Positions 20,536 to 61,621 of a DNA stretch of 64,000 nt are shown here, in pieces. Below the pieces are notes generated by a model, which worked only from the letters and a program-made list of their open reading frames with translations, did not search any database and was not told the DNA's origin. Each line of letters opens with the position of its first letter. The first letter of the stretch is position 1. The stretch is from Panopea generosa (taxonomy: Eukaryota; Mollusca; Bivalvia; Adapedonta; Hiatellidae): the NCBI GenBank assembly GCA_029582155.1, contig CM055895.1:21741171-21805170 (forward strand). Direction: 5' to 3'. The position numbers and the translations under genes were made by a program.

Positions 20536-20628
20536 ATGTCGTCAAAAAGTGATCGTAGGTTGGAAGCTAAAAAGAGGAAAGCTGTTGCATTTCTTGAATT
20601 AATCAAATCGGAACAGTCGTTGAAAAAG
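20536..20628 (+). CDS. REXO5: REXO5 exon 1 (start)
   Basis: Encodes MSSKSDRRLEAKKRKAVAFL then ELIKSEQSLKK. It is basic and helical in character, like a nuclear-targeting N-terminus. The donor is AAG then GTAAAA, phase 0, and the next exon also starts in phase 0. It is assigned by position in the shared promoter and by phase, not by homology. Confidence 0.72.
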
Positions 20629-31925: not shown

Positions 31926-34900
31926 TGTTTGCCAGTAAATAGTTTGATCTAGGTTCCAAAAGTAATTTGTATATTACTACGACTGTTAATAAATGTGTTA
32001 AGTAACAGATGTAACGAATAGACATTACCTTGTCAGCTACAGAAAGGTATATTTTATGAAGGCTAGTAGTTTGTATCACTAACCTTGCTATACGTTGCTT
32101 AAGTTATACATTGCTGGAAAAGCAATGACTTATAATATGGAAGAGTCCCTATAAAAAGTCAACAATTTATTTCTGAGTTGTTCAGTAAAAAATATAAAAA
32201 TAAAGTTTTTAATTTGTATCTTATAGAATTTATAAAACATATCAAAATATACTACCAATCCCTTCCAATAAACATACGGTTGTTTGTCAACTATATTTCT
32301 AATCTTCACACTCACTCACTCCTGGAGCTTATTTAAAAAAAAAATTTAAAATTTTAAAAATCTTCTTCTCCGAAAGTACAAGACCTGGAGTTTTGTTATT
32401 ATGCATGTAACAATATCAACTTATCATTGTCTTTGTTTAAGTGGCGGGTCCTCTGTGGCTGAGTGGTCTAAGGTGCTATCTCATGATCACTTAACTCTTA
32501 CCACTAAGGTTGTAGGTTTGAGTCCCGCTTGCTCCAAAAACTTTATGTGAGAAAGTTTCCAGTTACTTGCGAAAGGGCGGTGGTTCTACTCTGTCTGAGG
32601 TCTTCCTCCACCAATAAAACCATTACCTGAAATGTGTTGAAAATGTAGTTAAACCCCATTCAAAAACAAATAAATTGTTTAAGCCATGACCCTAGGTTCA
32701 AAATTGGCCCTGCCCAGGGACTTATCAGTTTAACATTGGGAAATTTTAATTCAATAATCTTTTCAAGAAGTGACCAGCTAAATTTATTCATATTTAGTAT
32801 AAATGGTTCCTATGAGTGGGGGTTTCGAGTTTGTTCATAGGAAGGGGCTATAAGGATCTATTTGGAAGCAGTAAGGGAACTTTGATTTTTACATAAGAAT
32901 ACTCTGGGAAAACAGGATATTGTGTTTTTCTCATCCATTTTGGTATAATTAATAGTGAAAAAATGTTCTTTTCTTGTTGGCTTCTGAAAAATAATATGCT
33001 AAGTCCCCTTGGCAGAGTCAGTTTGTTAAGTGAAAGGGCTAAAATCTATTGGGTACAGTCAGGGGACTTTGATTTTTATATAGGAATACAATTGGAAAAC
33101 AGTTTGTTTTTTGTCCAGCCTGTTTGTTGTTAAGTGTCACTTTCTTAGTTATATCGCTACCTGAGAGACAGCATTCTGAGCGTTGCAACCCTGGAGTATC
33201 ACGCCGCAGACACCTAGTATGATATCCCGCCCAGTAACATTTTACTGAAAGCAGGCTGACCAGACGTAGAATTATCCTCTTAATGCTGAGCACCAAGTAA
33301 TGACAAATTTTCTTTGGTATGACCAAGCCGGGGATCGAACCCATAGCTACCATATGCAAGGTTTCTGCTCTACTATTAAATCACTGTTGCAGTGACCCAT
33401 CTAATAATTGAAATTCTCTTATGTCTATTGCATAATAATTAACTATGTTTCGGCGAGGATATATTATACTCTTTCATAAAATTGCTATGATCAATACAAC
33501 AGCTGATAAATTAGACTAAATGTCACTCATTGCAGTTAACATTATGTACAATACTATAAACTTAGCTGTTTAACTGATTAAGATTTTATGAACACTAGTA
33601 TATTCGCAAATCTCATTTTCTTTTATCTCAGGAATACAAATCAAAGTTGTTACTCTGCACAATGAAATTCTCTACAAAATAATAATATTTCCAGCAAATT
33701 GTGTTTAAAATTGTTGAGTTATGGTTACACAATTTGTACACTGCAACAATGACAAACTGTATTGAAATTTTACTTTAAACTGCAATGTTTTAATTGAAGA
33801 TCATTTTACATTATACAACATAAGGTAACATACATTTTATTTATAGGAAATCAATCTTTGTCAACTAATTAATCTTTTGTGTGCTATTTTGTCATTACTT
33901 AGTCAGGAGATACAAGAATCCTATCTTTCTATATAAGTCCTAAGTGTTTTGTGGAAGCAGTTGACAGATGAGTCCAACCATAAACTAGTGTAAGGCATGG
34001 AAATCAATCACTAAAATAGGAAAAAGATTCCAAATTCGGGATTGTTCTTGCAAAATAAAAAGTAGTTTGTTTACATCTCTGAGTGTGATGGTTTTGATAC
34101 AATCGCTGTTTTTTTTTTCAATCGCTGTTCTTTAGATTAATGCATACATTTATTGTAGCTAGATCTGGCAAAAAAGTTGTCAATATTGCCAGATGTAAAG
34201 TTGTCAATATTGCCAGATGTAAGGTTGATACTGGAGTGACTGCTAGCCAAGGTCCTACTTCAGCCCAGGGGGAAAAGGCTTTTATATAATTACATGCAAG
34301 ATTAAAAAAATGGAAATGTTTGTTTTTTTAAATTTCACAGTCAACACTGCACTGTTGTTGTTGTAATTTGGCACACTACCTGATTAATGTTAATGCTTTC
34401 AATTGACAAAAAAAAAAATCCAAAAATTTGACATGTGATATATATTAATGGAAGTAAATGCAGTTTGAAAAATAGATGTTAAACTGCAATTGCCAAATAT
34501 TTGAAATTCCGAGGAGGAGCTTGTGAAGTCATTTGCTAGAAATTGTAAACATACGCCCACAAATCTTTTTTCATGATCCAAATAAGATATTACAAAATTA
34601 TAATATCTTGCGGTAGAACAATCTGCACTATCTGTAAAGTTAAAACATATCAGCACACAGACAAGTGAAACAGCTAAAAAGATTTGTATTTAGATATTAA
34701 CATTCACCATCAAAACATTGATATGTACGTTCAATGTATCATTTCAGGAGGTTGACGACCTCTCAAATGTAGGCTGCGGAGAACCAGTTAACAAGAAAGG
34801 AAAATATGCTTCACCATCGACATCTGTTCCAAGTACATTGACTGCTGATGGGGATGATAATCATTTAAACACAGGTGCTTTAAAATCAGATGGAAACAAT

Positions 34901-37900
34901 ATAACGTCATTTGCATCAGGTGTAATTACCTCAGGACTGACTGGCAGCGATGTGTCTGCACACACAGCTGAGATGGGAAGCAGTGAAGAGCCTACTAAGT
35001 GGTCAGACGTTAAGTCCGGTGATGTTTTAATTGCATATAAAAAAGAGTTGAGGGAAAGACAGAAAGCTGCTATGGTAAATGTTTTGTCATGTAGACCATG
35101 TTTTACATTATGTTTTACATTATGTTTTACATTATGATTCATTTAGTTATGTACTTACTTGCATTAATCTGAGAGTGCTTAATAAAGTTGAAAAATTATA
35201 AAGGAAAACTTATCATAACAGGAATTATGTTATATGAGGTATTTATAAGTCGTAAAGATAATGTTAGGTAGACTTGTTCAGCAAAGATGACATTTTAATA
35301 AATTTATGGAGGGAAGCAAAAAATTTCAGTGTTGTAAATACCTAAATAATGCATCAGTTACAAATATGTTATTGTATAAAAAAGGGTACTGGGTATATTT
35401 TTGAAAAACTTGGCATGTATGCAGAGAGAAATACGATTATGCACATCATTTGTTTTATTTACATAACAAAAGTGTGGTTGCTATGACAATAAAAATAATA
35501 AACTGATTTATATATCACTATTCTGAGATTTAAGTTTTTAAGTATTTTAATATTCATTATTTTTTTTACTCTGGTTAATTAGTTGTGGAACATATTCAAA
35601 TAAGGCTCGAAGTATTCCTGGTTAGAACCAGTTTTATTCTAAGCTCAGTTTTAAGATTATGTATATAAAGTGCCTTCCATAAGGACACTACACATAACCA
35701 CATCCCCTGTTTTCCCACCAATTATAAACTTAAATGAGGGGTAAGTGTGCATGTGATCATGATGTTAGATTGATCCCTGTACAATTGCATTTAGATTTAC
35801 TGACATTGATTGAATGATAAATAAATAACCAGTCAGAATGCAGTTTAAGTATTTAAGTAAATATGCTGGTAAAACTGAAGCCAGGTGCCTTTAAACAATT
35901 GGTACAGACTATTTTGCTGAGGTTTTCAAACATAAACCCTGTAACAAAAATAAATGGACTAAGACATATAGTTGTCAATAAAAAATGACACAGATAACTG
36001 GTCATATGGAGAAGCAATGCATCACAGAAATAATGACTATCAGTTATAATGTACAGTACCTGAAGATGGTGATTGGTACTTACATTTTGAAAACTGGTCA
36101 TCTTTGTTATTTTTTCTTGACTAATATATTCTTTGATCTATTTCAATTTTGCGGAATATCATTGTATAAATATTTAAAAAATATTATCACTTGTTACCAG
36201 CAAAGACCCAAAATATTTCTGACTTTGGATGAACTAGCCCGTGACAACCCAGTTGAAGCAGAACCTGATGAGGTCAAGCAAGTGCCTCCGCTCTTCATCA
36301 CAGACGTACAGCATCTATTGTTATATTCCTTACAAGGATTAAATTCAAGTATTAAACCAAGGTAAGCTACACTTATTAGCAGGTGCCCCCTCTCTTCATC
36401 ACAGACATGCAACATCTATTGTTATATTCCTTACAAGTATTGTATTCAAGTATTAAACCAAGGTACGTTACACTTATTAGCAGGTGCCCCCTCTCTTCAT
36501 CACAGGTGTACAGCATCTATTGTTATATTCCCTACACGGATTGTATTCAAGTATAAAACCAAGGTAAGCTAAACTTATAAGCAGGTGCCGTCTCTCTTCA
36601 TCACAGACATACAACATTTATTGTTATATTCCTTACAAGGATTATATTCAAGTATTAAACCAAGGTAAGCTACACTTATAAGCAGGTGCCTTCTCTCTTC
36701 ATCACAGACATACAACATCTTTTGTTATATTCCTTACAAGGATTGTATTTAAGTATTAAACCTTGGTAAGCTACACTTATTAGCAGGTGCCCCCTCTCTT
36801 CATCACAGACATGCAACATCTATTGTTATATTCCTTACAAGGATTGTATTCAAGTACTAAACCAAGGTATGTTACACTTATTAGCAGGTGCCCCCTCTTT
36901 TCATCACAGATGTACAGCATCTATTGTTATATTCCCTACAAGGATTGTATTCAAGTATTAAACCAAGGTAAGCTACACTTATAAGCAGGTGCCTTCTCTC
37001 TTCATCACAGACATACAACATCTATTGTTCTATTCCTTACAAGGATTATATTCAAGTATTAAACCAAGGTAAACTAAACTTATAAGCAGGTGCCTTCTGT
37101 CTTCATCACAGATGTACAACATCTATTGTTATATCCCTTACAAGGATCATATTCAAGTATTAAACCAAGGTAAGCTACACTTATTAGCAGGTACCCCCTC
37201 TCTTCATCACAGATGTACAGCATCTATTGTTATATTCCCTACAAGTATTATATTCAAGTATTAAACCAAGGTAAGTTACACTTATAAGCAGGTGCCCCCT
37301 CTCTTCATCACAGACGTACAACATCTACTGTCATATTCCCTACAAGGATTATATTCAAGTATAAAACATTTTCATCTCAGATGTACAGCTTATAAACAGG
37401 TTCCTACATTTTCATCACAGATATATAGCTTATAAACAGGTTCCTACATTTTCATCACAGATGTACAGCTTATTAACAGGTTCTTCCCTTTTTCATCTCA
37501 GATGTACAGCTTATAAATAGGTTTTTCCCTTTTTCATCACAGATGTACAGCTTATAAATGGGTTCTTACCTTTTTCATCACAGATGTACAGCTTATAAAC
37601 AGGTTCTTCCCTTTTTCATCACAGATGTACAGCTTATAAAAAGATTCTTCCCTTTTTTTTCATCACAGATGTACAGCTTATAAACAGGTTCTTCTCTTTT
37701 TATCACAGATGTACAGTTTATAAACAGGTTCCTACATTTTCATAACAGATGTACAGCTTATAAACAGGTTCTTCCCTTTTCTATCACAGATGTACAGCTT
37801 ATAAACAGGTTCTTCCCCCTTTTTTTTTTATCACAGATGTACAGCTTATAAACAGGTTCTTCTCTTTTTATCACAGATGTACAGTTTATAAACAGGTTCC

Positions 37901-40900
37901 TACATTTTCATAACAGATGTACAGCTTATAAACAGGTTCTTCCCTTTTCTAACACAGATGTACAGCTTATAAACTGGTTTCTACATTTTCATCACAGATG
38001 TACAGCTTATAAACAGGTTCTGCCCTTTTTCATCACAGATGTACAGCTTATAAACAGGTTCTTCCCTTTTTCATCACAGATGTACAGCTTATAAAAAGAT
38101 TCTTCCCTTTTTTTTCATCACAGATGTACAGCTTATAAACAGGTTCTTCTCTTTTTATCACAGATGTACAGTTTATAAACAGGTTCCTACATTTTCATAA
38201 CAGATGTACAGCTTATAAACAGGTTCTTCCCTTTTTTCATCACAGATGCACAGCTTATAAACAGGTTCCTACATTTTCAGCACAGATTTACAGTTTATAT
38301 ACAGGTTCTGCCCTTTTCCATCACTGTATACTGTGTTATACTTATTCAAAGATTGCAATACTATACAAAACTAAGTTAAACTACACTTGTGAGCATGTGC
38401 CTCCTGACTTTTATCAAGGGTGTACAGTATTTTTTACAGGAATTTTATTCTAGTATTAAACAAAGGTAAGCATCATTTAGAAGCATTCACCGAATGTAAG
38501 AAGACTTTATTGTCATATACATACTGATGTGGAGTCATACATTGCAACTTAATAACTGGTTCAGCACTGTCCAACCAGGCATTATGTATGTGGCAAACTT
38601 TCTCACTTACAAATATTTTGACCAAACTTGCTTTCATCAGTCTTACCCATCAATGAAAAGTAAGTGATTTTGTCATAATATTTCAGACAACGTAGCCAGG
38701 GAAAACATGAAATGTTATAAGGAATTCATCTAACACATCTGCTTATATTCTAATTGTTGTGATAATCTAATGTTTTGAAGCATCATGTTTCATTGTAGCG
38801 TTTTTTGCAACATATTTACGTATGTTCTTGGTTTTGTATTATAGATGGTGTCGGTTATTACGGGTTGGTAAAGTTTCCAAGGTCGTGGCCGTCGTCTTGG
38901 AATCGGTCAGTGCTGATGACTTTCACAAGTATGCAGACTCATTGCCAACTCTTAAGTCAGCATTTGATGTGGTAAGCAGCATTTACTTTTGCAATGATAC
39001 CCAACAGCGTTATTTTTGTTGACTTAATGTAAGAGACTGAATGATAACTGGTGGAAACATCTAATCAAGGGTCAGGGAGGGTCATATGTTCTATTTTGTT
39101 GCAACCACCATGGGAATATGTTGTGTCCTTGAGCACTTTATCTGCATATGCTTAGTATTTGTTCTACGAAGAATGAACTAAAAATTGATTTGATGTGTGT
39201 GAACTTAAGATTATTTTGATGTATGAACTAAAGTTTGATTTTATGTATGAACAAAAGATTGACTCTATGTGTGAACTAAAGATTGATTTGGTGTGTGAAT
39301 TAAAGATTGATTTGATGTATGAACTCAAGATTGATTTGGTGTGTGAATTAAAGATTGATTTGATTTATGAACTAAAGATTGATTTGATGTATGAATTGAA
39401 GATTGATTGTGTGAACTTAAGATTGATTTTATTTGTAAATTAAAGATCAATTTGATGTGTGAACTAAAGATTGATTTGATGTATAAACTAAAGATTGTTT
39501 TGGTTTATAAACTAAAGATTGATTGTTTGAACTAAAGATTGATTTGATGTGTGAACTAAAGATTGATTTGATGTGTAAATTAAATATTGATTGTGAACTA
39601 AAGATTGATTTGATGTATGAACTAAAGGTTGATTTGGTGTATGAACTAAATATTGATTTGATGTGTAAATTCAAGATTGATTGTGTGAACTTAAGATTGA
39701 TTTGATGTTTAAACTAAAGAATGATTTGGTTTGTGATCTAAAAAATGATTTGATGTGTGAACTAAAGGTTGATTTGATTGGTTTATGAACTAAAGATTGA
39801 TTTGATGTGTGAACTAAAGATTGATTTGATGTGTGAACTAAAGATTGATTTGATGTGTAAATTAAAATTGACTGTGTGAACTTAAGATTGATTTGGTGTG
39901 TGAACTAAAGATTGATTTGATGTATAACTCTGTGTGTGAACTAAAGATTGATTTTATGTGTAAATTAAATATTGATTTGGTGTGTGAAATAAAGATTGAT
40001 TTGATGTTTGAACTTAAGATTGATTTGATGTGTAAACTAAATATTGATTTGGTTTGTGAACTAAAAAATGATTTGATGTGTGAACTAAACATTGATTTGA
40101 TGTGTGAACTAAACATTGATTGTGTGATCTAAAGATTGATTTGGTGTATTAACTAAAGATTGATTTAGTGTGTAAACTAAAGATGATTTGGTGTATGAAT
40201 TAAAGATTGATTTGGTGTGTAAAATAAAGATTGATTTGGTGTATGAACTAAAGATTGATTTGATGTGTGAACTAAAGATTGATAAGGTGTGTAAACTAAA
40301 GATTAATTTTGTGTATGAACTAAAGATTGATTTGATGTATAAACTAAAGATTAATTTGGTGTATGAACTTAAGACTGATTTGATGTGTGAACTAAAGATT
40401 GATTTGATGTGTAAACTAAAGATTGATTTGATGTGTGAACAAAAGATTGATTTGATGTGTAAATTAAAGATTGATTTGATGTTTGAACTTAACATTAATT
40501 TGATGTGTGGACTAAAGATTGATTTGATGTGTTAACTAAAGATTGATTTGATGTGTGAATTAAATATTGATTTTATGTGTAAACTAAAGATTGATTTGAT
40601 GTGTGAACTAAATATTGATTTGATGTGTAAACTAAAGATTGATTTGATGTGTAAACTAAGATTGATTTGATGTGTGGACTAAAGATTGATTTGATGTATA
40701 AACTAAAGACTGATGTGTTGTGTGAACAAAAGATTTATTTTATAAATTCGGTAAATTATTTTAAACACCCCTTCTGAATGAAAATAAAATTGTTCACAAA
40801 GATGAGAAGAATCTATTGTAAATTTTTCAAAATAAAGTGCTATCTTTTTTGCTTCTGTAAGAAATCTTAATAATTAACCTTTTCAGGTTAACCACCTTTT

Positions 40901-52900: not shown

Positions 52901-55900
52901 ATATGTTTCAGATGTTTCACCTGTATGTTGCTGGTCCCCTGCTTATAGCAATAACTACTATATGTTTCAGATGTTTCACCCCTATGTGATAGATACCAGT
53001 GTAATCTACAACCTGACTGGTAACAGAAGAATGAAGACTGGTCTGAAAAGACTTACAGCTCACTTTCTATGGTAATGTAATAATTATTTGTAATCATATT
53101 TGATTGAATAAGTCACCGATTTCTTTTTGTCTCTGTAACTGAAAATTATATTTTTCTTTTAATATATTTGAGCGTAGAGGTGAATATTGACACTTTAAGA
53201 CATGGTATTCATTATAAACAAAAGCTTTGAATGGCTTTAAGTCGCTCATTTCAAAGTCAAGATAGATGTTGTAGCTGGAAATGGGAAAATGATTTCTGCT
53301 CATAAACTGAAAAAAATTGTTTCCTCTAAAATAGTGAGACAAGAATTTATGGGTGGACACTTATGACTGGAAGCTTGAGTCTGCTTTTCAGATCTTTCAC
53401 GTCAAGGTCACTATTGCTAAAACTGATAAAATGTTTTTATTTCACCTTTTATTATCTTTCTTAGTGTTGTGTTAGTGAAAATATAAAATTTAATAATGAC
53501 AATGATTTATGTTTTCAAACTCCTAGCAAAGATCAGGTGCATTTCTGTTTTATAATATAATAACTCAATGTCGTTTACTTTGAATGACCTCCATCCATTT
53601 ACTTTACTTTGTTTATACCCTATCTTTAACACTTTTTGTTGAATCTTGACCAAACTTCAACAATTATATAACCAATACACCTTTAGCAAATTCTTTACAG
53701 GTTTTTATTGGTAATTAATGTCTGAGTTGTGACTCTTGAATCACAACTTCTGTTATGCCACAGATTAACAATTAAGGGCTAATGCAGGTTTGCTTCTTAA
53801 ATGTTACTGTTGATAATTTGTATTTTGTAGCCGTTCAATCCAGGACAGCCAGGATGGTCACAGTTCTGTAGAAGATGCACAGGCTACCATTGAGCTAGTG
53901 CTTCTTAAACTCAGAAATGGTATGATATAACTGTCAGGTAGTTCTGCTGTAATACATGTAACTCTGGTATTGTTTGGAATATCATCACTCTGCTGTGATC
54001 CGATACAGGCCACCATTGAGCTAGTGCTTCTTAAACTCAGAAATGGTATGATAAAACTGTCAGGTAGTTCTACTGTAACATATGTAACTCTGGTATTGTT
54101 TGGTATATCATCACTCTGCTGTGATCCGATACAGTCTACCATTGAGCTAGTGCTTCTTAAACTCAGAAATGGTATGATATAACTGTCAGGTAGTTCTACT
54201 GTAACACATGTAACTCTGGTATTGTTTGGTATATCATCACTCTGCTGTGATCCGATACAGGCTACCATTGAGCTAGTGCTTCTTAAACTCAGAAATGGTA
54301 TGATATAACTGTCAGGTAGTTCTACTGTAATACATGTAACTCTGGTATTGTTTGGTACATGTATATCATCACTCTGCTGTGATCCGATACAGGCTACCAT
54401 TGAGCTAGTGCTTCTTAAACTCAGAAATGGTATGATATAACTGTCAGGTAGTTCTACTGTAATACATGTAACTCTGGTATTGTTTGGTATATCATCACTC
54501 TGCTGTGATCCGATACAGGCTATCATGGAGCTAGTGCTTCTTAAACTCAGAAATGGTATGATATAACTGTCAGGTAGTTCTACTGTAACACAGGTAACTC
54601 TGGTATTGTTTGGTATATCATCACACTGCTGTGGTACTAAACAGGCTACCATGGAGCTAGTGCTTCTTAAACTCAGAAATGGTATGATATAACTGTCAGG
54701 TAGTTCTACTGTAACACATGTAACTGTGGTATTGTTTGGTATATCATCACACTGCTGTGATCCTATACAGGCTACCATGGAGCTAGTGCTTCTTAAACTC
54801 AGAAATGGTATGATATAACTGTCAGGTAGTTCTATTGTAACATATGTAACTCTGGTATTGTTTGGTATATCATCACTCTGCTGTGATCCGATACAGGCTA
54901 CCATTGAGCTAGTGCTTCTTAATCTCAGAAATGGTATGATATAACTGTCAGGTAGTTCTACTGTAACACATGTAACTCTGGTATTGTTTGGTATATTATC
55001 ACTTTGCTGTGATCTGATACAGGCTACCATTGAGCTAGTGCTTCTTAAACTCAGAAATGGTATGATATAACTGTCAGGTAGTTCTACTGTAATACATGTA
55101 ACTCTGGTATTGTTTGGTACATGTATATCATCACTCTGCTGTGATCCGATACAGGCTACCATTGAGCTAGTGCTTCTTAAACTCAGAAATGGTATGATAT
55201 AACTGTCAGGTAGTTCTACTGTAATACATGTAACTCTGGTATTGTTTGGTATATCATCACTCTGCTGTGATCCGATACAGGCTATCATGGAGCTAGTGCT
55301 TCTTAAACTCAGAAATGGTATGATATAACTGTCAGGTAGTTCTACTGTAACACATGTAACTATGGTATTGTTTGGTATATCATCACACTGCTGTGATCCT
55401 ATACAGGCTACCGTGGAGCTAGTGCTTCTTAAACTCAGAAATGGTATGATATAACTGTCAGGTAGTTCTACTGTAACACATGTAACTGTGGTATTGTTTG
55501 GTATATCATCACACTGCTGTGATCCTATACAGGCTATCATGGAGCTAGTGCTTCTTAAACTCAGAAATGGTATGATATAACTGTCAGGTAGTTCTACTGT
55601 AACACGTGTAACTCTGATACTGTTTGGTTTATCATCACACTGCTGTGATCCTATACAGGCTATCATGGAGCTAGTGCTTCTTAAACTCAGAAATGGTATG
55701 ATATAACTGTCAGGTAGTTCTACTGTAACACATGTAACTATGGTATTGTTTGGTATATCATCATACTGCTGTGATCCGATACAGGCTACCATGGAGCTAG
55801 TGCTTCTTAAACTCAGAAATGGTATGATATAACTGTCAGGTAGTTCTACTGTAACACGTGTAACTCTGATACTGTTTGGTTTATCATCACACTGCTGTGA

Positions 55901-58900
55901 TCCTATACAGGCTATCATGGAGCTAGTGCTTCTTAAACTCAGAAATGGTATGATATAACTGTCAGGTAGTTCTACTGTAACACATGTAACTCTGGTATTG
56001 TTTGGTTTATCATCACGCTGCTGTGATCCTATAATTCTGAAAAACTTTAATGTCTGTATTCTTTCATCGTAATGCATTACCAACTATTACAAAATACTGC
56101 CATTTTTAACAACCACTGTATCAATTGATCATTCTTACAGTTCGTTCTTTTGGTAAAAATAAACCTGGTTAATTATTTTACAATAAAGTCATTTTATTTG
56201 CAAATACAATTTTAAAGGTTTGCACAGAGACACTTTCTATTTTTAAACTACAGCTGGTTTCCTGCTTGGACCAATCACTATTACAATGTATATTTATGTA
56301 TATATGTCTCCCTCTCTCAGGGAGTAATTTTGTTTTTGTGTTTTCCATCAATCCGCACAAAATTTCATCTGGATAGCTTCTGCTACATTGGTGGTCAGAT
56401 TTAAATTTTGACTATGATGCCTCACCATTGTGCCAAATTTATCGCAAAATACTGCCATTTTTAACACCCTCTTTACAAATTGATTGATTTGCTCATCTTT
56501 TAAGTTTCAAGATACAAACACCTCATACTTTTCAATAACCGCATGCCTATATTCATTATTGAGTATGCCATTACTATTGACTAAAATTCTAAGTATGTAG
56601 GGTTTGGTTGCAGTTTCTTAGATTTAAAGGAAGACATCCAAGTAAGCTGAATGAAAATTTACTATGTTACCTGCCAAACCAACTAAATGTTATTAGGTCA
56701 CCCCTTTATTGTGTAAAATAATACATTATGGTAGGATAAAATAGGGTAAATGATGACATGACAAATGAATAGATAGCTTATCATCTAAATTTTTCTTTAA
56801 AAGGGTGAGTTGGGGTTGTGGGGGAGTATTTTTTATTTTATAATTTTTTTTTTTTTTATGAAAATAAAAAGGGCTAGGGCAGCATGAAAATTAGGGAGCA
56901 GATGGGGATGATAATCTAGCTATTGATTTCTTATGGCCTTAACCACAAAATTTAACATTGGTTCACTGAAGTAGTTGCATCATGAATGTAAATTTGCTCA
57001 ATGTTTTTATTTTGTTCAGGTGCAGAGTTTGGAGACATGTCAGTTGCTGCTCCATCTATGTACACTAATGTTGGCTCATCAACTGCATCATCAGAGGAAA
57101 GCCAACCACAGACAAAGGAGGAACATTTAGTTACAAAGGATGAAGAGGATAAGGTTGATGCTAAAAACAATAGTAGTGAAGAATGTACGTCAAAGACTGA
57201 TGACAGTCACAATAAGAATAGTTGTGAAATAGACAATATTACAGATCAGAATTGTGTAACTAATGATATAAAGGCTGAAAAAAGTAATAATAACCTGTCA
57301 GAATCAGATGAAGAAAAGCTTGATAATAGCTCAAACATCACCAGAAGCTCCATGGCAATACAGCAGAGGAGTAACACTAGTGATATCATTCAGAGACGAC
57401 TGTTCTTTCAACGTGAAGGAAATCGTTTCATTGAAACTTTTATTCACAGAATAAGTCAACAAAAGAAAACAGGTAATTTGATTTATCAACATTCTTGTTT
57501 ATTCATTTGACATAAATTCTGTGTAACCATAGTAATACCGGTTTTAAGAATACCAACTTGTTTAAAAGTTTGATGCGGGGTCCTCTGGGCCAAATGGTCT
57601 AAGACACTGACATCTAATGATCACTTACCCCTCATCACTACGGTCATCGGTTTAAGCGTAGCTTGTACCAAAAACTTAATAAATGTGCCAGTTCATATTT
57701 GCAGAAGGACAGTGGTTCTACTCAGATTCATACTGTGGTCTTCCTCCACCAATAAACTTGATATGCCATATATAACATACCATGTATTGAAAATGGAGTT
57801 AACCCCCATTTAAGTAAAAAAAATGTTGATAACTGCACAAAATAAGATATATACCTTATCCTTTTTGGCCATTCATATTTTATTTGATCCCCATACATTT
57901 TCTATTTGAACATATTACAGTCCTGTATTCACAAGTACCAACAGAACATAACAAACAACTGACAATGTTTATGAACGAGAGATGCCAGCAGCTGAACTAT
58001 CATTACACCTTTAAAAAATTACTTTTGTAACAGTTGCCTGTGCAAGCTTTTGTTTAGACCGTTATCGGTATAGAACTAGTTACAGGGCTGTCATAAGAAG
58101 CTAGAGGTCGGGACTTTCCCCCAGCTATTCTTATTTAAACATCCGGCTATTTTCAGCTGAGTTTCTTACATTTTTTTTGTGGAGAACCCCAAGACCCTGT
58201 TGTACTTTTTCTTTTCACCTTCCTTCTTCAAAACTTAATGAAAGCCCTGAGTTATGTTTATTAGATAACTGAAACGTGTCATTGTCAGGGCAGGAAAATT
58301 CTACTTTTCCCCTTGAGTAAACATTTAGCCACGGAAAAGCAAGAATTAAGAAACTTACCTTAATATTTCTTCAATTTTATTCCTTAAAAATATTTGGACA
58401 AGGAGGACCAGTAGCTTTGATAACAAATTTCAAGCCCTGATTATGTACAATACATGTAATGTACATTGTACTATGTATAATGTACAGTACATATATAAAC
58501 ATGCATATATAATAATATACATTACATAATTACAGACATATCATACAGTGTACAGTGCATATCATAGTTATAATGTATAGAACACACCATATACAATACA
58601 TATAATATAATGTACATGATTGTATGTGTTATCTAATATGCAGTACATATCATATAATGTACATGACTGTTTGTGTCATATAATATACAAAGCATATAAT
58701 AATTATAATTTATTGTATATATTTTATAATGTACAATACATCACATTATGTACGTGATTGTATGTGTAATTCGATATACAGTACATATCATATAATATAA
58801 AGTACATATCATATAATGTACAGTACATTTCATAATTATGATTTATAGTACACATGTATAATGTACACTACATATATAATGTACCTAACAGTATGTGTTG

Positions 58901-60807
58901 TATAATGTACAGTACAGATATAATGTACCTGACAGTATGTGTTGTATAATGTACAGTACAGATATAATGCACCTAACAGTATGTGTTGTATAATGTCAGT
59001 ACAGTACAGATATAATGCACATGACAGTATGTGTCGTAGAATATACAGTACAGATATAATGCACCTGACAGTATGTGTTGTATAATGTACAGTACAGATA
59101 TAATGCACCTGATAGTATGTGTTGTATAGTGAACAGTACAGATATAATGTACCTGACAGTATGTGTCGTATAATGTACAGTACAGATATAATGTACCTGA
59201 TAGCATGTGTCGTATAATGTACAGTAATGTACCTGACAGTATGTGTCGTATAATGCACAGTACAGATATAATGCACCTGACAGTATGTGTCGTATAATGT
59301 ACAGTACAGATATAATGCACCTGACAGTATGTGTTGTATAATGTACAGTACATATATAATGCACCTGACATTATGTGTTGTATAATGTACAGTACATATA
59401 TAATGCACATGACAGTATGTGTTGTATAATGCACAGTACAGATATAATGTACCTGACAGTATGTGTCGTATAATGTACAGTACATATATAATGCACCTGA
59501 CAGTATGTGTCGTATAATGTACAGTACATATATAATGCACCTGACAGTATGTGTCGTATAATGTACAGTACAGATATAATGCACCTGACAGTATGTGTCG
59601 TATAATGTACAGTACAGATATAATGTACCTGACAGTATGTGTCGTATAATGTACAGTACATATATTATGTACCTGACAGTATGTGTCGTATAATGTACAG
59701 TACAAATATAATGTACCTGACAGTATGTGTTGTATAATGCACAATACATATAATATTTTATTAGTTATAATGTATAGCACATATCATATAATGTACAGCA
59801 CTTATAATGTAGTGTACATTACTATATATCTAGATCATATAATGTTCAGTATATATTTTATAATTACAGGTAAAATTATTGATGTTCCCACACATGTGAC
59901 ACTGTATCCAGCCGCACTTCCAGTGATTTCATGCAGCACAGACAAGGACAGTGAGAAACAGACAACAACTGTGTTACAAGACAATGACTTCTGTCTCACA
60001 CACCTAAATGGCTTCAGTGATTTGCTTAAACAAAACAAGGGAAACAAACAAATAGATGAAGAGGAGATAAAGGTAGATAATCCTGTTTGGGATGTGTGAT
60101 TAATTTTATCATCAGCATGCACATATTCTCATGGCATTTTGGTGTGAATATTATTCAAATTGCTAATTTTATATAATTAGACCAGGCATTCAGACTTTGG
60201 TAGCATTTGACTTCATTTGAAAAGATGAAATAAAAGTTTAATTAGAACAAGAATAGCTATGGGTAATGCATAGTTTATTAGAACAAGAATAGTTACGGGT
60301 ATTGCACAGTTTATTAGAACAAGAATAATTACAGGTTATGCATAATTTATAAGTGTTTGGAAACAGCAAAGAATTTGCCATATTGTTAAAACTGAGGATA
60401 AATGGAGTTGCGCTGTAGTGAATTATAAATATCTTACATGGGTTTTAAGTGTTGGGTGCTCACATCAGAAGATTCGATCGAAACCTTGACCTGATAGCCT
60501 CTTGAAAACAACACCCAGTGTCGGTTCAAGCGTTAAACAGACTTGAGAGTGATACATACAGGTTATGAGATAAAATAAAGTGGTATAAATGAAACTGAGG
60601 ATTAGATAGCAGCTATATTATGAAGATTTGTTTTAACCCTTCTTTTTTACCTCATATTTTCAGAAGTGCATGTGGAAACTGGACAGAAGGTTATGGAAGA
60701 TCATGTGTAAACTTGAAGATCGATCCCTGATTGTTGTAGTTCTGGCTGGCCGCCAGCACAACATGACTGTATATCCTGCTATGACTTTTGCCAAGATTGC
60801 CAGCTGA
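20536..60807 (+). CDS. REXO5: REXO5-like RNA exonuclease (whole gene, 14 coding exons)
   Basis: The spliced product is 800 residues. The exonuclease domain (about 375-535) is of the REX1/REXO DEDDh type: Exo I D382-C-E384-M, Exo II D466 in GQSLSGDL, Exo III H515 and D520 in GHSSVEDA. The central phrases FSGITKEILDPV, VQRQI, LPPDAIL and HPYVIDTS are family hallmarks and match vertebrate REXO5 (NEF-sp). The N-terminal part (residues 175-270) also matches, including the WC-L block in exon 4. Animal REXO5 works in the nucleus/nucleolus and trims 3' ends of snoRNA and rRNA; I infer the same here. The two RRMs of vertebrate REXO5 are not seen. In their place is a Ser/Asn/Glu/Asp-rich region (535-685), then a short C-terminal block (754-785) resembling the vertebrate end. 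Exons: 20536-20628, 34748-35074, 36201-36361, 38845-38971, 43052-43154, 46222-46479, 47394-47479, 49301-49419, 50033-50171, 52971-53071, 53831-53919, 57020-57472, 59870-60072, 60664-60807. All phases agree. Confidence 0.9.
20985..21275 (+). mobile_element. tRNA-derived SINE (family E)
   Basis: The head CACCGGTGGTCTATGATTAG then TAGTGCATCCGCCTCACATG and a degenerate B box (GGTTGAAGTTCATTCTCC) is followed by a long body that includes TCTGGTCAGGTCGACCTGGT and ATACTGTCTCATGTAGACAC. A minus-strand element of similar organisation is at 33115-33390. Confidence 0.55.
21285..21500 (+). mobile_element. tRNA-Leu/Ser-like SINE (family F)
   Basis: GGGTCCTCTGCGGCCAAATG, AAGGTGCTGTCGTCTAA, then GGTTTGGGTCTAGCTCAGTC and AACTTAATGAGAGAAAGTTT. 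The shared order of head, CCAAAAACTTAATG, GAGAAAGTTTGCCAG and a final ACTCAGA part defines a family with copies at 32444, 50515, 57585 and 60875. Confidence 0.65.
22717..23486. mobile_element. Inverted-repeat element with nested SINE
   Basis: The left end GAGAGGTTTCGATCTGATAC then TTGTGTACTGGTATGTGTAG has a right-hand complement of about 50 bp ending GAAACCTCTC at 23483. The interior has no long frame. A tRNA-like sequence sits inside it near the right end. Confidence 0.55.
23235..23340 (+). mobile_element. tRNA-like SINE head
   Basis: TTGTGGTGCAGTGGTAGAAC and the B box GAGTTCGAATCCTGTCAG are well kept, but the flanks do not pair into an acceptor stem. A second degenerate B box (AGGTTCAAACCCTGC) precedes it. 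Probably a SINE head, not a tRNA gene. Confidence 0.5.
23832..24240. repeat. Tandem duplication of about 217 bp
   Basis: Two neighbouring blocks begin GGTAGAGCTAGTATC or TGTAGAGCTAGTATC, continue with GACTTC then GCATTTCAA, TTTAATTTTAATTTGCAT or TTTAATTCTAATTTGCAT, and end with AAACAAACAATAAAC. Divergence is considerable, so the duplication is old. Confidence 0.6.
26156..28588 (-). pseudogene. LINE ORF2 reverse transcriptase part, frame-broken
   Basis: Motifs in order: KNWRPISLLN, QTGFLEGR, the catalytic-palm FEKAFDTISW, QGDPLSPYIF, and QYADDTSLIL with the YADD active site. The distal part ends with CTFCKQHIENITHLFWEC (C-x2-C-x7-H-x4-C), as in many L1-clade ORF2 proteins. Frame changes occur near 28140-28200, 27901-27953 and 26523-26551. 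The long central frame is 476 codons. Product: non-functional. Confidence 0.88.
28993..29906 (-). pseudogene. LINE ORF2 endonuclease part, frame-broken
   Basis: Begins with FISVNVQGLG, LQDTH (the usual Glu position is Asp), then LAGDFNLVLN, RLDFFLISK and RTDHSIITL. These are the conserved steps of the APE-type endonuclease that nicks target DNA. A frameshift lies near 29640. The segment between 28600 and 28990, which should link it to the reverse transcriptase, is riddled with stops. Confidence 0.85.
30225..30372. repeat. 23-bp minisatellite (about 6 units)
   Basis: The unit is close to ATAGATTAAACATAGTTACA plus ATA. It is very homogeneous, so a recent expansion. Confidence 0.9.
30840..31100. 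repeat. AC/AT-type compound microsatellite
   Basis: Alternating CATACA, CACATA and TATATA tracts. Open frames of Tyr/Ile/His-rich text here are artefacts. Confidence 0.9.
31891..31920. repeat. Poly(A) run of about 30
   Basis: Could be a microsatellite or the tail of a plus-strand retroposed copy. No recognisable element precedes it. Confidence 0.8.
32444..32685 (+). mobile_element. tRNA-Leu/Ser-like SINE (family F)
   Basis: GGGTCCTCTGTGGCTGAGTG then GTCTAAGGTGC is the tRNA head. GGTTTGAGTCCCGCTTGCTC is the B-box region, and the body includes ATGTGAGAAAGTTTCCAGTT, GGTTCTACTCTGTCTGAGG and TGTGTTGAAAATGTAG. This is one of the best copies of the family in the window. Confidence 0.7.
32690..33110. 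mobile_element. Decayed copy of the 1664-3366 element
   Basis: CCCTAGGTTCAAAATTGGCC, CCTGCCCAG and ATAAGAATACTCTGGGAAAA correspond to text in the 636-bp units near the left end of the window. Two internal subrepeats (GGGACTTTGATTTTTA at 33063, and a similar phrase at 32877) suggest it also contained tandem units. Confidence 0.4.
33115..33390 (-). mobile_element. tRNA-like SINE, minus strand
   Basis: The right end reads, on the minus strand, GTAGAGCAGAAACCTTGCAT with B box GGTTCGATCCCCGGCTTG. The body contains TCAGCCTGCTTTCAGTAAA and the left part CGATATAACTAAGAAAGTG. Confidence 0.55.
34400..34650 (-). repeat. Dispersed AT-rich repeat related to 18080-18310
   Basis: CAGTTTGAAAAATAGATGTT, GCCAAATATTTGAAATTCCG and ATAATATCTTGCGGTAG line up with the other copy. 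The minus-strand frame of 85 codons is not convincing as a gene. Confidence 0.35.
34748..35074 (+). CDS. REXO5: REXO5 exon 2
   Basis: Residues 32-140, from EVDDLSNVGCGEPVNKKGKY to KKELRERQKAAM. Ser/Thr/Gly/Asp-rich and probably disordered, ending in a charged helix. Acceptor ATCATTTCAG, donor ATG then GTAAAT. A 14-bp triplicate (TTACATTATGTTTT) follows the donor at 35100. Confidence 0.8.
35075..36200 (+). other. REXO5: REXO5 intron 2
   Basis: AT-rich; apart from the small triplicate near the donor I see no element or exon. Confidence 0.6.
36201..36361 (+). CDS. REXO5: REXO5 exon 3
   Basis: Residues 141-194. Encodes QRPKIFLTLDELARDNPVEA, then EVKQVPPLFITDVQHLLLYS and LQGLNSSIKPR. The latter half corresponds to the helical segment before the WC-L block of vertebrate REXO5. 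The last 80 bases with the GTAAGC donor have been amplified downstream. Confidence 0.88.
36362..37365 (+). repeat. 101-bp array built from the exon 3 end and donor (about 10 copies)
   Basis: Each unit holds about 80 bases of exon 3 (from GTGCC through TTCATCACAG to AAACCAAG) plus about 21 intron bases (GTAAGCTACACTTATTAGCA). Donor variants are GTAAGC, GTACGT, GTATGT, GTAAAC and GTAAGT. Most copies also have CCCCTCTCTTCATCACAG, an excellent 3' splice-site look-alike, so each unit resembles a complete small exon. Units differ by a few percent. Confidence 0.92.
37366..38330 (+). repeat. Second-generation 40-bp array from the exon 3 unit (about 23 copies)
   Basis: The unit is TTATAAACAGGTTCTTCCCT then TTTTCATCACAGATGTACAG C. 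It equals the preceding 101-bp unit with its middle (about 61 bases from ATCTATTG to CTACAC) deleted, then amplified again. Nearly every unit keeps a T-rich tract and ATCACAG. Confidence 0.9.
38845..38971 (+). CDS. REXO5: REXO5 exon 4
   Basis: Residues 194-236: WCRLLRVGKVSKVVAVVLES then VSADDFHKYADSLPTLKSAF DV. It corresponds to the WCQL-VVVFVLQG block upstream of the exonuclease domain in vertebrate REXO5. Acceptor TTGTATTATAG, donor GTAAGC. Confidence 0.9.
39171..40736 (+). repeat. 24-bp minisatellite in REXO5 intron 4 (over 60 units)
   Basis: The unit is GATTTGATGTGTGAACTAAA GATT. Because 24 is divisible by three, frames such as (CELKIDLM)n stay open; they are not genes. The unit core TTTGATGTG is identical to the last nine bases of exon 4, 200 bp upstream, which may or may not be coincidence. 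Confidence 0.93.
40737..41370 (+). other. REXO5: REXO5 intron 4, unique stretch between arrays
   Basis: About 630 bp with no exon or element that I recognise. Confidence 0.55.
41371..42998 (+). repeat. 31-bp minisatellite with 59-bp dimers in REXO5 intron 4
   Basis: The basic unit is close to ACAGTGTATAATACAGTTTG plus TGTTTAACTCA. Between 41570 and 42190 it is organised as a higher-order dimer alternating TATAATACAGTTTGTG and TATAATATGGTTTGTG. The array stops where a copy of exon 5 sequence begins. Confidence 0.93.
42999..43038 (+). repeat. Extra partial copy of exon 5 just upstream of exon 5
   Basis: Forty bases starting GGAAGTACAGTTAGAGAAGA match exon 5 at 43082-43121 with two mismatches. 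The 83-bp spacing covers the exon 5 acceptor and its first codons, so this is a two-copy, junction-spanning duplication. Confidence 0.88.
43052..43154 (+). CDS. REXO5: REXO5 exon 5
   Basis: Residues 237-270: QVEMVSPLQYGSTVREDILN then VPLSMSQMRKTKTY. Acceptor CTTCATTTCAG, donor GTATGT. It ends in a split ATG codon with exon 6. Confidence 0.85.
43218..43460 (+). mobile_element. tRNA-derived SINE (family D)
   Basis: Shares CCTCCACAGTGCCATAT, ACAAGGTACTGTGAAAGTAT and GTAATAACCAGTG with the copy at 13740-14030. The tRNA-like head is more decayed. Confidence 0.55.
43510..43700 (+). mobile_element. tRNA-derived SINE (family A)
   Basis: TAGTGTTGGTCGCTCATGCC then GTGGGTTCAATCCTCAGC, CTCAAAAAGCAACACTCATT, ACTGGTTCTATCAGGAAGTG and AGCTTTCATTAAGCTAAAAT match the complement of 63061-63250. 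Confidence 0.65.
43745..43960 (+). mobile_element. SINE-like repeat (family F, diverged)
   Basis: GGTGATGGGTTCAAGCCTAG resembles a B box, and GATTCCACTCAGATACATGA with CCTCCACCAATAAAA matches the family F tail. The head is unrecognisable. Confidence 0.45.
44101..46221 (+). repeat. 35-bp minisatellite in REXO5 intron 5 running into the exon 6 acceptor (about 60 units)
   Basis: The unit is ACATGCAGACATTCATTTCC then AGTTTGTTTGTTAGT. The last, diverged unit reads CATGCAGAAATTCCTTTGCA G and provides the acceptor AG of exon 6, so every unit carries a related TTCATTTCCAG decoy. Subfamilies alternate (TTTCCAG/TTTTCAA, ACATGC/TCATGC), giving a higher-order 70-bp pattern around 45240-45740. Confidence 0.95.
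46222..46479 (+). CDS. REXO5: REXO5 exon 6
   Basis: Residues 271-356. From MKSVRKQKDVAAQLSNDCKV through NPLQYFKDQQMQRKKQKTLP to LIHEGIPMPVNLN. It is the linker just before the nuclease domain and is rich in charged residues. The donor is AAT A then GTAAGT. Confidence 0.88.
46490..46680 (+). mobile_element. tRNA-derived SINE (family B)
   Basis: ACATGGTCTCATGGTAGAGC is the A-box part. GTACTGCTTCTACCCTGGAA and GACTTTGAGCATT match the body of the 11930 copy. It starts about 15 bases after the exon 6 donor. Confidence 0.6.
47200..47370 (+). mobile_element. SINE family B, head-decayed
   Basis: GGTTGTGAGTCTGATCCCCA, TAGTACTGGCTCTACCAGGA and CACAATTGATGTAAAATGAA match the family. It lies immediately upstream of exon 7; its tail reaches the T-rich acceptor tract. 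Confidence 0.55.
47394..47479 (+). CDS. REXO5: REXO5 exon 7 (Exo I, DCEM)
   Basis: Residues 357-385: KQHRYFQFTKDEYKPVTSTS then PIFAVDCEM. D382 and E384 are metal ligands. The phase-0 donor after DCEM is GTAAGT. Confidence 0.95.
47946..48411. mobile_element. MITE with TTAA ends (piggyBac-like)
   Basis: A perfect 16-bp inverted repeat: TTAAAGGGATTATATT on the left and AATATAATCCCTTTAA on the right. The outer TTAA on both sides fits the TTAA target preference of piggyBac-type transposases. There is no coding frame. It is inserted in REXO5 intron 7. Confidence 0.75.
48538..49264 (+). repeat. 39-bp minisatellite in REXO5 intron 7 (about 19 units)
   Basis: The unit is ATTACAAGTTTGATTTTGAT then GTTGCGTAACTTCAAGGTC. 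The 13-codon period keeps frames open on both strands (for example QHQNQTCNDLEAT), which are shadows. It ends 36 bases before exon 8, and I see no exon 8 sequence in the unit. Confidence 0.93.
49301..49419 (+). CDS. REXO5: REXO5 exon 8
   Basis: Residues 386-425: VQTKQCYMDLARVSIVNENL then ETVYDTFVKPWSPVVNYVTR. This is the strand after Exo I with the LARVS and VKP signatures of the family. Acceptor TTTCTTGTAG. Confidence 0.94.
49420..50032 (+). other. REXO5: REXO5 intron 8
   Basis: Contains CCAATATGGTGGCCATTACT, which resembles the AAAATGGCCACCGTTACT phrase of the 1664-3366 element, and a tRNA-B-box-like GTGGGTTCAAATCCTGATAC near 49867. No exon seen. Confidence 0.5.
50033..50171 (+). CDS. REXO5: REXO5 exon 9 (Exo II)
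   Basis: Residues 425-471: FSGITKEILDPVKTRISDVQ then RQIREILPPDAILCGQSLSG and DLLSMK. D466 is the Exo II acid. The usual GHSL reads GQSL here; that His is not a metal ligand. The donor is the weak GTTCGT. Confidence 0.94.
50515..50745 (+). mobile_element. tRNA-Leu/Ser-like SINE (family F)
   Basis: CTTAAGGTACTGTGCCAAGA, CCTGGGTTCAAACCCAGATC and AGAAAGTTTGCCAGTTACTA are family text; the tail is CATATATAACCTGTCATATT. Confidence 0.6.
50780..52987 (+). repeat. 63-75-bp array in REXO5 intron 9, spanning the exon 10 acceptor (about 28 units)
   Basis: The unit reads CACCTGTATGTATTTATGAA, ATGCTGCTGGTCCCCTGCTT, ATACCAATAACTACAATATG, TTTCAGATGTTT. The final copy crosses into exon 10, whose first 17 bases (ATGTTTCACCCCTATGT) match the unit at 15 positions. 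A SINE splits the array at 50951-51251. Many inner copies have lost the AG (TTTCTGATG, TTTCTTATG, TTTCACC), while a few keep TTTCAG. Confidence 0.92.
50951..51251 (-). mobile_element. SINE family C, full copy inside the intron 9 array
   Basis: On the minus strand: GGCCCGATTAGCTCAGTCGG, B box GGGTCGTGAGTTTGAATCCC, body to the tail AATATTCAATCAATCAATCA. It is flanked by an 11-bp target duplication, GTGTTTCAGAT, at 50940-50950 and 51252-51262, and the duplicated site is itself array sequence. Confidence 0.82.
52971..53071 (+). CDS. REXO5: REXO5 exon 10
   Basis: Residues 472-505: MFHPYVIDTSVIYNLTGNRR then MKTGLKRLTAHFL. The HPYVIDTS motif is typical of the REX1/REXO group. The acceptor TATATGTTTCAG belongs to the array unit. 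Confidence 0.93.
53072..53830 (+). other. REXO5: REXO5 intron 10
   Basis: Donor GTAATG, acceptor ATTTTGTAG. AT-rich with no array, SINE or exon that I recognise. Confidence 0.7.
53831..53919 (+). CDS. REXO5: REXO5 exon 11 (Exo III)
   Basis: Residues 505-534: CRSIQDSQDGHSSVEDAQAT then IELVLLKLRNG. H515 and D520 complete the DEDDh active site. The donor GTATGA follows AATG. The last 37-44 bases are amplified downstream. Confidence 0.95.
53881..56033 (+). repeat. 126-bp array built from the exon 11 end and donor (real end plus 16 copies)
   Basis: Each unit holds about 44 bases of exon 11 (from ACAGGCTACCATTGAGCTAG to AAACTCAGAAATG), the donor GTATGATATAAC, and about 70 more intron bases (CAGGTAGTTCTACTGTAACA and so on). 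Nearly all copies keep the AATG-GTATGA junction and an upstream GATACAG. Two units are 6 bp longer (ACATGT insert). The period is a multiple of three, so a 741-codon minus-strand frame stays open; it is a shadow. Confidence 0.95.
56034..57019 (+). other. REXO5: REXO5 intron 11, distal part
   Basis: Unique AT-rich DNA plus one MITE (56690-56945). CAGCTGGTTTCCTGCTTGGA CCAATCACTATT at 56251 resembles text near 50777 in intron 9, so a small dispersed repeat is shared. Confidence 0.55.
56690..56945. mobile_element. MITE, family 2 copy 2
   Basis: GCTTATCATCTAAATTTTTC, GGGCAGCATGAAAATTAGG and GGGGATGATAATCTAGCTAT match the copy at 17100-17310. The right end is CTTATGGCCTTA. Confidence 0.6.
57020..57472 (+). 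CDS. REXO5: REXO5 exon 12 (acidic low-complexity region)
   Basis: Residues 535-685, starting AEFGDMSVAAPSMYTNVGSS. Very rich in Ser, Asn, Glu, Asp and Lys, probably disordered. It ends with a basic, possibly helical part (RRLFFQREGNRFIETFIHRI). Vertebrate REXO5 has RNA-recognition domains after the nuclease; no RNP-like motif is visible here. Confidence 0.88.
57585..57830 (+). mobile_element. tRNA-Leu/Ser-like SINE (family F)
   Basis: GGGGTCCTCTGGGCCAAATG, TGATCACTTACCCCTCATCA, ACAGTGGTTCTACTCAGATT, CTTCCTCCACCAATAAAC and TGGAGTTAACCCCCATTTAA define a nearly full copy. Confidence 0.68.
58440..58860. repeat. AT-rich degenerate repeats (TATAATGTACAGTACAT)
   Basis: Irregular copies of ATAATGTACAGTACATATCA precede the regular 44-bp array and look like its older, diverged edge. 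Confidence 0.7.
58861..59750 (+). repeat. 44-bp minisatellite in REXO5 intron 12 (about 20 units)
   Basis: The unit is GTACAGTACAGATATAATGC, ACCTGACAGTATGTGTCGTA, TAAT. The 44-codon period keeps minus-strand frames open for up to 314 codons; these are shadows. The array ends 120 bases before exon 13, and the intervening text (ATAATGTTCAGTATATATTT then TATAATTACAG) looks like further decayed units leading to the acceptor. Confidence 0.93.
59870..60072 (+). CDS. REXO5: REXO5 exon 13
   Basis: Residues 686-753: GKIIDVPTHVTLYPAALPVI then the charged tail to QIDEEEIK. Joined by a split glycine codon to exon 12. Donor AAG then GTAGAT. Confidence 0.85.
60240..60350. repeat. Three copies of a 36-bp repeat
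   Basis: TTAGAACAAGAATAGCTATG, TTAGAACAAGAATAGTTACG and TTAGAACAAGAATAATTACA head three tandem units in intron 13. Confidence 0.85.
60440..60600 (+). mobile_element. SINE family A, decayed
   Basis: GTGTTGGGTGCTCACATCAG, GATTCGATCGAAACCTTGAC and CTGATAGCCTCTTGAAAACA follow the family A order. Confidence 0.55.
60664..60807 (+). CDS. REXO5: REXO5 exon 14 (last)
   Basis: Residues 754-800: KCMWKLDRRLWKIMCKLEDR, SLIVVVLAGRQHNMTVYPAM, TFAKIAS, then TGA. The W-L-KI-L-L pattern resembles the last conserved block of vertebrate REXO5. Acceptor CATATTTTCAG, phase 0. Confidence 0.87.
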   Translation, partial: KCMWKLDRRLWKIMCKLEDRSLIVVVLAGRQHNMTVYPAMTFAKIAS

Positions 60808-61171: not shown

Positions 61172-61621
61172 CTTTCATACTGCAACATCAGATTTGCGAA
61201 AACTACCTTTGACCTCAAGGTATCTGTCGCATGGTAGAGAAGGTGAACACATGCCAATGTGGAAATGACATGTGCATCAATTTGATGTGTATCCATTACT
61301 ATTAAGTAAAAGTGATGGATATTATCAGCAATGTGCTGTACACTATATGTGATGTCTTACAGTTGTTAAGGTATGGAAACAATGCTGTTAAATTGGATAT
61401 GTTAATTTGATTTTATTAAATTAAAGAGATGCATAACAAATACTTGTGTTTCATTTTCTGTTCAGTTTTGGATATAAGCCTTAACAATACCCACATATAA
61501 AAACTTTTATGTAATAATACAAGGAAAGAGAGTCATATTTACATGTTTCGCGGAAGTGTAGATGTGTATTAAAATGCAATTATGGTAGGCTAGTAGAATA
61601 TATGAGAGTAAGATAGGTGTG

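Follow-up and report, generated by a model that had tools for sequence, protein, structure and literature searches.

The DNA analysed here, a stretch of 64,000 nucleotides (the window), holds two exonuclease genes arranged head to head, ERI2 on the minus strand and REXO5 on the plus strand, with 274 bp between their first coding exons. Fourteen REXO5 exons join through introns that are all of the GT-AG type to give an uninterrupted frame of 800 amino acids from 20536 to 60807, and similarly the nine coding exons of ERI2, running from 20261 down to 5903, join through GT-AG introns into an uninterrupted frame. An RNase_T domain (PF00929) is found at residues 380-527 of the REXO5 protein and also in the ERI2 protein, of which the first 266 amino acids made up the query. 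The domain match itself gives only the exonuclease family, and the gene names are those of a human pair to which the two genes presumably correspond. The GC content of the window is 33%, and an Rfam scan and a tRNA scan of the window gave no matches. The window contains 500 N, all outside REXO5, which by eye form one run at 792-1291 that is probably a scaffold gap.

The unusual feature of the locus is density, in that at least four exon borders of a single gene carry arrays beside a neighbouring gene and a long intron without such an array. Arrays were called with TRF and the repeat content was summed over merged TRF rows, giving 13417 of 26060 bp for the stretch with REXO5 exons 2-14 (34748-60807), 449 of 14119 bp for the 14.1 kb intron 1 and 1536 of 14359 bp for ERI2. 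A first-pass annotation of this DNA had put about 13 kb of these 26 kb in arrays, with a large array in each of introns 3, 4, 5, 7, 9, 11 and 12, and TRF agrees on both counts, placing two of the arrays in intron 4. Its opinion that the effect is not simply regional, ERI2 having one array only, is also borne out by the low repeat content of ERI2 and of intron 1. That half of the REXO5 gene body is minisatellite holds for exons 2-14 but not for the whole gene, which measures about 40 kb once exon 1 is counted in. Introns 2, 6, 8, 10 and 13 contain 0 to 116 bp of TRF repeat each, and with the arrays subtracted the array-bearing introns come to 0.5-1.2 kb, similar to the 0.5-1.1 kb of those five. 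Coordinates are collected in Table 1.

Table 1. REXO5 exons, tandem arrays and related copies, in coordinates of the window
Feature	Position	Strand	Basis or remark
REXO5 exon 1 (coding part)	20536..20628	+	in-frame join to exon 2
REXO5 exons 2-14, coding end 60807	34748..60807	+	14-exon GT-AG join, 800-aa frame
Intron 3 array a (3a), 101-bp unit (86 bp from the exon 3 end, donor, 15 intronic bp)	36276..37367	+	TRF, border alignment
Intron 3 array b (3b), 41-bp unit, without donor, with acceptor-like ...TTTTTCATCACAG	37369..38324	+	border alignment
Diverged outermost copy of the 101-bp unit, intron 3	38368..38485	+	two overlapping matches, 69% and 81% identity
Intron 4 array a (4a), 24-bp unit, exact 10-mer in common with exon 4 end (weak)	39174..40740	+	TRF, border alignment
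Intron 4 array b (4b), 31/62-bp unit, end 41 bp short of exon 5	41375..43010	+	TRF
Copy of exon 5 interior (43081-43121), upstream of exon 5 acceptor	42998..43038	+	39/41 identical, offset 83 bp
Intron 5 array, 35-bp unit, last unit = exon 6 acceptor	44129..46222	+	TRF, border alignment
Intron 7 array, 39-bp unit, end 33 bp short of exon 8	48536..49267	+	TRF
Intron 9 array, about 72-bp unit (exon 10 acceptor and the 17 exonic bp that follow it)	50774..52987	+	TRF, border alignment
Intron 11 array, 17 units of 126 bp (41 bp from the exon 11 end, donor, 85 intronic bp)	53879..56033	+	TRF, border alignment
Intron 12 array, 44-bp unit	58589..59818	+	TRF, border alignment
ERI2's only large array, control; 244 bp to nearest exon	8909..10172	-	TRF, border alignment
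20-bp-unit array, about 0.8 kb past REXO5 coding end, 3' flank	61619-64000		one break, 2166 bp total, reaches window end

Four of the arrays contain a splice junction or end directly at one, namely the exon 3 donor, the exon 6 acceptor, the exon 10 acceptor and the exon 11 donor, with up to about 59 copies per array. The intron 3, 9 and 11 arrays had been said to hold exon sequence together with a splice site, and they do, with 86, 17 and 41 bp of exon respectively; the intron 5 array indeed supplies the exon 6 acceptor, its end at 46222 being that acceptor with one exon base taken in. At intron 3 the first unit of array a is the functional end of exon 3, and GGTA is kept at the donor place in all 10 full units. 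Compared with a consensus built from units 2-10, this exon-bearing unit has 8 differences in 101 sites, those units themselves having 4 to 9, and array b is, judged from its likeness, probably a shortened derivative of array a. At intron 11 the donor ATG/GTATGA is identical in 17 of 17 units. The intron 9 array starts at 51290 by TRF with older copies standing apart at 50774-50950, and its 25 units were counted from 51250 on. An open extension of exon 10 into this array was considered and dropped, the frame meeting a stop 81 bp upstream.

The arrays of introns 4 (both), 7 and 12 may be ordinary minisatellites. The REXO5 arrays resemble ordinary intronic minisatellites in unit size, in the near-identity of their units and in repeated unit pairs, although the units of introns 3, 9 and 11 add junctions and coding sequence. 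Array 4a is 202 bp from an exon, and the intron 12 array is 51 bp from exon 13 if a row of 21-bp units at 59766-59818 is merged with it and otherwise about 118 bp. The edges of arrays 4b, 7 and 12 that face exons were unmoved by a lenient wraparound alignment. The junction-spanning duplicate previously remarked at exon 5 is present too (Table 1).

The derivation of units from their own borders was approached by aligning 11 unit consensus sequences, nine from REXO5 and two controls, to the 42 splice borders of both genes at 90 bp each, with 1444 non-array 90-bp windows of the same sequence (overlapping at a step of 30, plus strand only) as background; among them are the diverged outer copies of certain arrays, and this biases the comparison against a match. 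For eight of the nine REXO5 units the best of the 42 borders belongs to the unit's own intron, five of these matches only being strong. The exon 3 donor is matched by array 3a at a score of 170 (next best border 25) and by array 3b at 34 (next 19, with 0 of 1444 windows as high), the exon 6 acceptor by array 5 at 72 (next 22), the exon 10 acceptor by array 9 at 94 (next 23) and the exon 11 donor by array 11 at 157 (next 31). The own border comes barely first for array 4a (20, next 18; 31 of 1444 windows as high), for array 12 with the exon 13 acceptor (25, next 24; 7 of 1444 windows as high) and for array 7 (23, next 21, the array tail being included). With array 4b the own border is not top among the 42, the exon 5 border scoring 12 and 1142 of 1444 windows matching that. 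Origins of array 7 from the exon 8 acceptor and of array 4b from the exon 5 acceptor were rejected, as without the tails called by TRF each border scores 12, equalled by 1076 and 1142 of the 1444 windows respectively. The ERI2 control array, in gene orientation, scores 12 with its own donor 7 and 16 with its own acceptor 8, the best border being acceptor 7 at 20, and the 3' flank control belongs to no intron. Shuffling the best border by dinucleotides is not specific here, the 3' flank control giving 3 in 1000 and array 4a 4 in 1000; arrays 12, 4b and 7 give 14, 11 and 24 in 1000. Five arrays are certainly seeded at four borders, whilst the evidence of a border origin is weak for two (4a and 12), and for arrays 4b and 7 these alignments lend it no support. 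The statement that expansion started repeatedly at exon edges stands for four arrays physically, and for a fifth, array 3b, by likeness to array 3a.

Minisatellite-like tandem duplications of exon/intron boundaries are already in print, as the "mirages" of lancelets (PMC3087553, PMC3902484), and so the novelty implied by the first-pass annotation for exon-border minisatellites is not supported. According to the portions of these papers available, mirages occur in Adh3 (an earlier report), globin, troponin C and PGBD5 genes, regular splicing being apparently unaffected (PMC3087553, PMC3902484), and are found at donors and at acceptors with copy number differing between haplotypes; their description is traced to a 2002 paper and their mechanism is called unclear by the literature itself (PMC3087553). 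In PGBD5 imperfect 60- and 108-bp repeats lie over splice sites, troponin C being named there too (PMC3902484). Like lancelet mirages, as far as those portions describe them, the REXO5 tandem units span a donor or an acceptor, the AG or GT is kept in many units and not in all, and boundary copies are less homogenised than inner ones. Units made of a part of an exon with the adjoining intron end are found in introns 3, 9 and 11, the intron 5 unit having just 1 bp of exon, and the donor is kept in every unit of intron 11 (17/17) and every full unit of intron 3 (10/10), contrary to the AG in intron 9 (5/25). Unlike the lancelet cases REXO5 has eight large arrays in one gene, four of them at junctions and with up to about 59 copies, the lancelet unit numbers, where given, being 6 and 3 in the BflGb6 haplotypes and three in PGBD5. 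The phenomenon is known but rarely reported, and is here unusually dense in a single gene.

The arrays of introns 3, 5, 9 and 11 are probably minisatellites of this mirage type, with a functional terminal copy and passengers for the rest, and REXO5 would then be an extreme, multi-border case grown by tandem duplication and unequal exchange. A short segment that spans a splice junction by chance, for example the last 41 bp of exon 11 with 85 bp of intron, would be duplicated in tandem, after which slippage and unequal exchange would multiply the duplicate into the intron. On the exon side the terminal copy would remain functional, in that use of the first donor or the last acceptor leaves the protein frame unharmed, and purifying selection would keep that copy, the remaining ones being passengers with decoy splice sites. 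We infer the duplication and exchange steps, and by analogy with the lancelet mirages also normal splicing. The coding frame is intact provided that the terminal splice sites are used; by eye an in-frame stop occurs within four codons past the true donor in introns 3 and 11, and therefore a transcript that retained the array would give a protein truncated at that point.

Most likely the exon came first and the array derives from it, because residues at the exon 10 start and the exon 11 end align with the solved nucleases ISG20, ISG20-like 2 and Small RNA degrading nuclease 1 (SDN1), as for instance GHSSVEDAQATIEL in REXO5 with GHSSVEDARATMEL in the ISG20 chain. The exon-bearing unit shares 88-92% identity with the others in intron 3 and 90-98% in intron 11. 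Variation among units is similar in their exonic and intronic portions, pi being 0.040 and 0.053 respectively in intron 11 (the split set one base early) and 0.101 and 0.093 over units 1-10 of intron 3. Diverged copies at the outer edges of the arrays and the resemblance of array 3b to array 3a also count for the mirage reading. Within the intron 11 array, unit 4 is identical to unit 10 (no other unit is 132 bp long) and unit 5 to unit 11, the members of each pair being six units apart, and there are 5 differences between units 6 and 12 and likewise between units 3 and 9; the identical pairs point to segmental exchange or duplication inside the array. Such pairs, and the 500 N in the window, though outside the gene, could speak for artefacts of assembly with repeats collapsed or expanded, but most units carry point differences and the frame is intact across all 14 exons, which leaves an assembly origin highly improbable.

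Some observations do not sit easily with the mirage reading. Intron 11 has at 56238-56280 a sequence similar (77% identity) to 43 bp of the intron 9 unit, because of which a part of that unit may be dispersed sequence rather than exon border. Arrays 4b and 7 are near exons and yet not of border sequence, and pure chance does not explain the proximity of arrays to exons. For that proximity the eight merged arrays of at least 500 bp were reinserted at random into the residual intron; neither shorter arrays nor those of ERI2 and the 3' flank entered this test. At the limit of 50 bp proposed in the first-pass annotation an excess is indeed seen in this gene, with six of eight arrays within that distance of an exon and 0.91 expected (P 4.3e-5, for a window picked as striking). 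Limits of 20, 35 and 100 bp take in 4, 5 and 7 arrays (P 2.7e-4, 1.4e-4 and 1.6e-4), the seventh at 100 bp being that of intron 12, counted only via its merged short adjoining row. Junction-containing seeds are expected at 0.9-1.0, with P of 0.047-0.063 for at least three and 0.006-0.009 for at least four, the fourth being that of intron 5 with its one exon base; junction overlap is about 3-4 times expectation. All of these P values overstate the case by an unknown factor because the window was chosen for looking unusual.

How the surplus at borders arises allows more than one answer. A mutational process could target exon borders in this gene and make array birth more frequent there, for example by stalling of replication or transcription where composition shifts from exon to intron, and the proximity of six of eight arrays over an expectation of 0.91, the involvement of both donor and acceptor sides, the repeat-poor 14-kb intron 1 and the own-intron best border of eight of nine units would all suit it, as would a coding strand richer in T than in A for 8 of 9 array rows, if slightly so in some (skew -0.04 to 0.38). 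However the G-C skew varies between arrays from -0.29 to 0.67, both large control arrays are away from exons and unlike their own borders, junction overlap alone gives P 0.006-0.06, and it is a matter of one gene in a window selected by eye, and so such targeting seems rather unlikely. Doubtful to much the same degree is the proposal that borders are true hot spots of minisatellite birth in this lineage through a border-tied process, with at least four and perhaps seven independent events in REXO5. The first-pass view of border targeting, which 64 kb of sequence can at most suggest, keeps the proximity excess on its side but must contend with units in 4b and 7 unlike the border, with the 202 bp that separate array 4a from an exon and with the modest junction overlap.

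Survivorship needs no new mechanism: arrays would arise at random, those in mid-intron would be lost by deletion, and those holding a needed splice site could not be wholly deleted. This has a little less than an even chance of being right, and is a neutral cause of the border surplus inside the mirage reading, not an alternative to it. The junction overlap of only about 3-4 times expectation and the arrays away from exons (4a, ERI2 and the 3' flank) are in keeping with survivorship, although on its own it leaves unexplained arrays 4b and 7, which are 41 and 33 bp from exons and without a functional site. Most simply the border surplus as such would be a mix of chance, of tolerance of arrays in introns only and of border-anchored arrays that deletion cannot remove, a border-specific mutational bias being possible.

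The putative passenger copies amount to decoy splice sites in part of the gene. Position weights came from a small set, the 21 donors and 21 acceptors of this same window, and the control introns (REXO5 1, 2, 6, 8, 10 and 13) were scored without leaving sites out. GT sites that score at least as high as the real donor number 8 in intron 3 and 17 in intron 11, and those reaching the median donor number 10 in the 2.5 kb of intron 3 and 39 in the 3.1 kb of intron 11, the controls having 0 to 1.8 per kb. Acceptor-like sites at or above the median number 14 in intron 3 (5.6 per kb; control range 0 to 3.3 per kb), and introns 4, 5, 7, 9, 11 and 12 have 1 to 5 such sites each, inside the control range. 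Thus the many decoys of the first-pass annotation are confirmed as extra donor-like sites in introns 3 and 11, but for acceptors there is an excess over controls in intron 3 only. Intron 5 has 45 AG sites at least equal to its real acceptor, which is itself weak (4.0 against a median of 7.2). In intron 9 the acceptor segment is present in 16 of 25 units and the AG is kept in 5 of 25 with the real acceptor included; as decoys, 4 of 24 units have the AG whereas all donor copies are intact in introns 3 and 11, and this AG loss in intron 9 (51250-52990) could reflect selection or array history.

Conservation of donor and AG in 17 of 17 intron 11 units, and the GT sites that equal or outscore the real donor (8 in intron 3, 17 in intron 11), might suggest that arrays are functional, as cryptic mini-exons or as decoys regulating REXO5 splicing. 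Yet the internal mini-exons of 37 and 58 nt are not multiples of three (by eye), the exonic unit parts are not clearly more conserved than the intronic ones, and the acceptor-like sites of introns 5, 9, 11 and 12 are inside the range of control introns, so a functional role is very unlikely. Border-spanning repeats lend themselves to asking how, out of dozens of near-identical sites, the spliceosome selects a single one, and a gene in which four certain cases stand next to some possible ones would be a good test bed. Such repeats have also been proposed, in the portion of the lancelet work available, as raw material for intron gain (PMC3087553). The potato RdRp gene is alike in that a tandem duplication across an intron-exon boundary copied splicing signals, and differs, as far as the available text goes, in that one duplication gave a new intron whereas REXO5 has many copies (PMC4974935). 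A search of the openly licensed literature with mollusc and bivalve terms returned no title on exon-border repeats in molluscs.

Several dispersed elements were also noticed by eye. REXO5 intron 1 contains a LINE-like reverse transcriptase element on the minus strand (26100-29900) with frames apparently broken, and between ERI2 exons 1 and 2 (18680-19780) about 1 kb is bounded by oppositely oriented copies of a AATCCGGCCCC-type motif, in the manner of a MITE or DNA transposon. Related tRNA-like (SINE-like) stretches, none of them called by the tRNA scan, are at about 13130-13360 and at 50951-51250, the latter separating the intron 9 array from its older copies.
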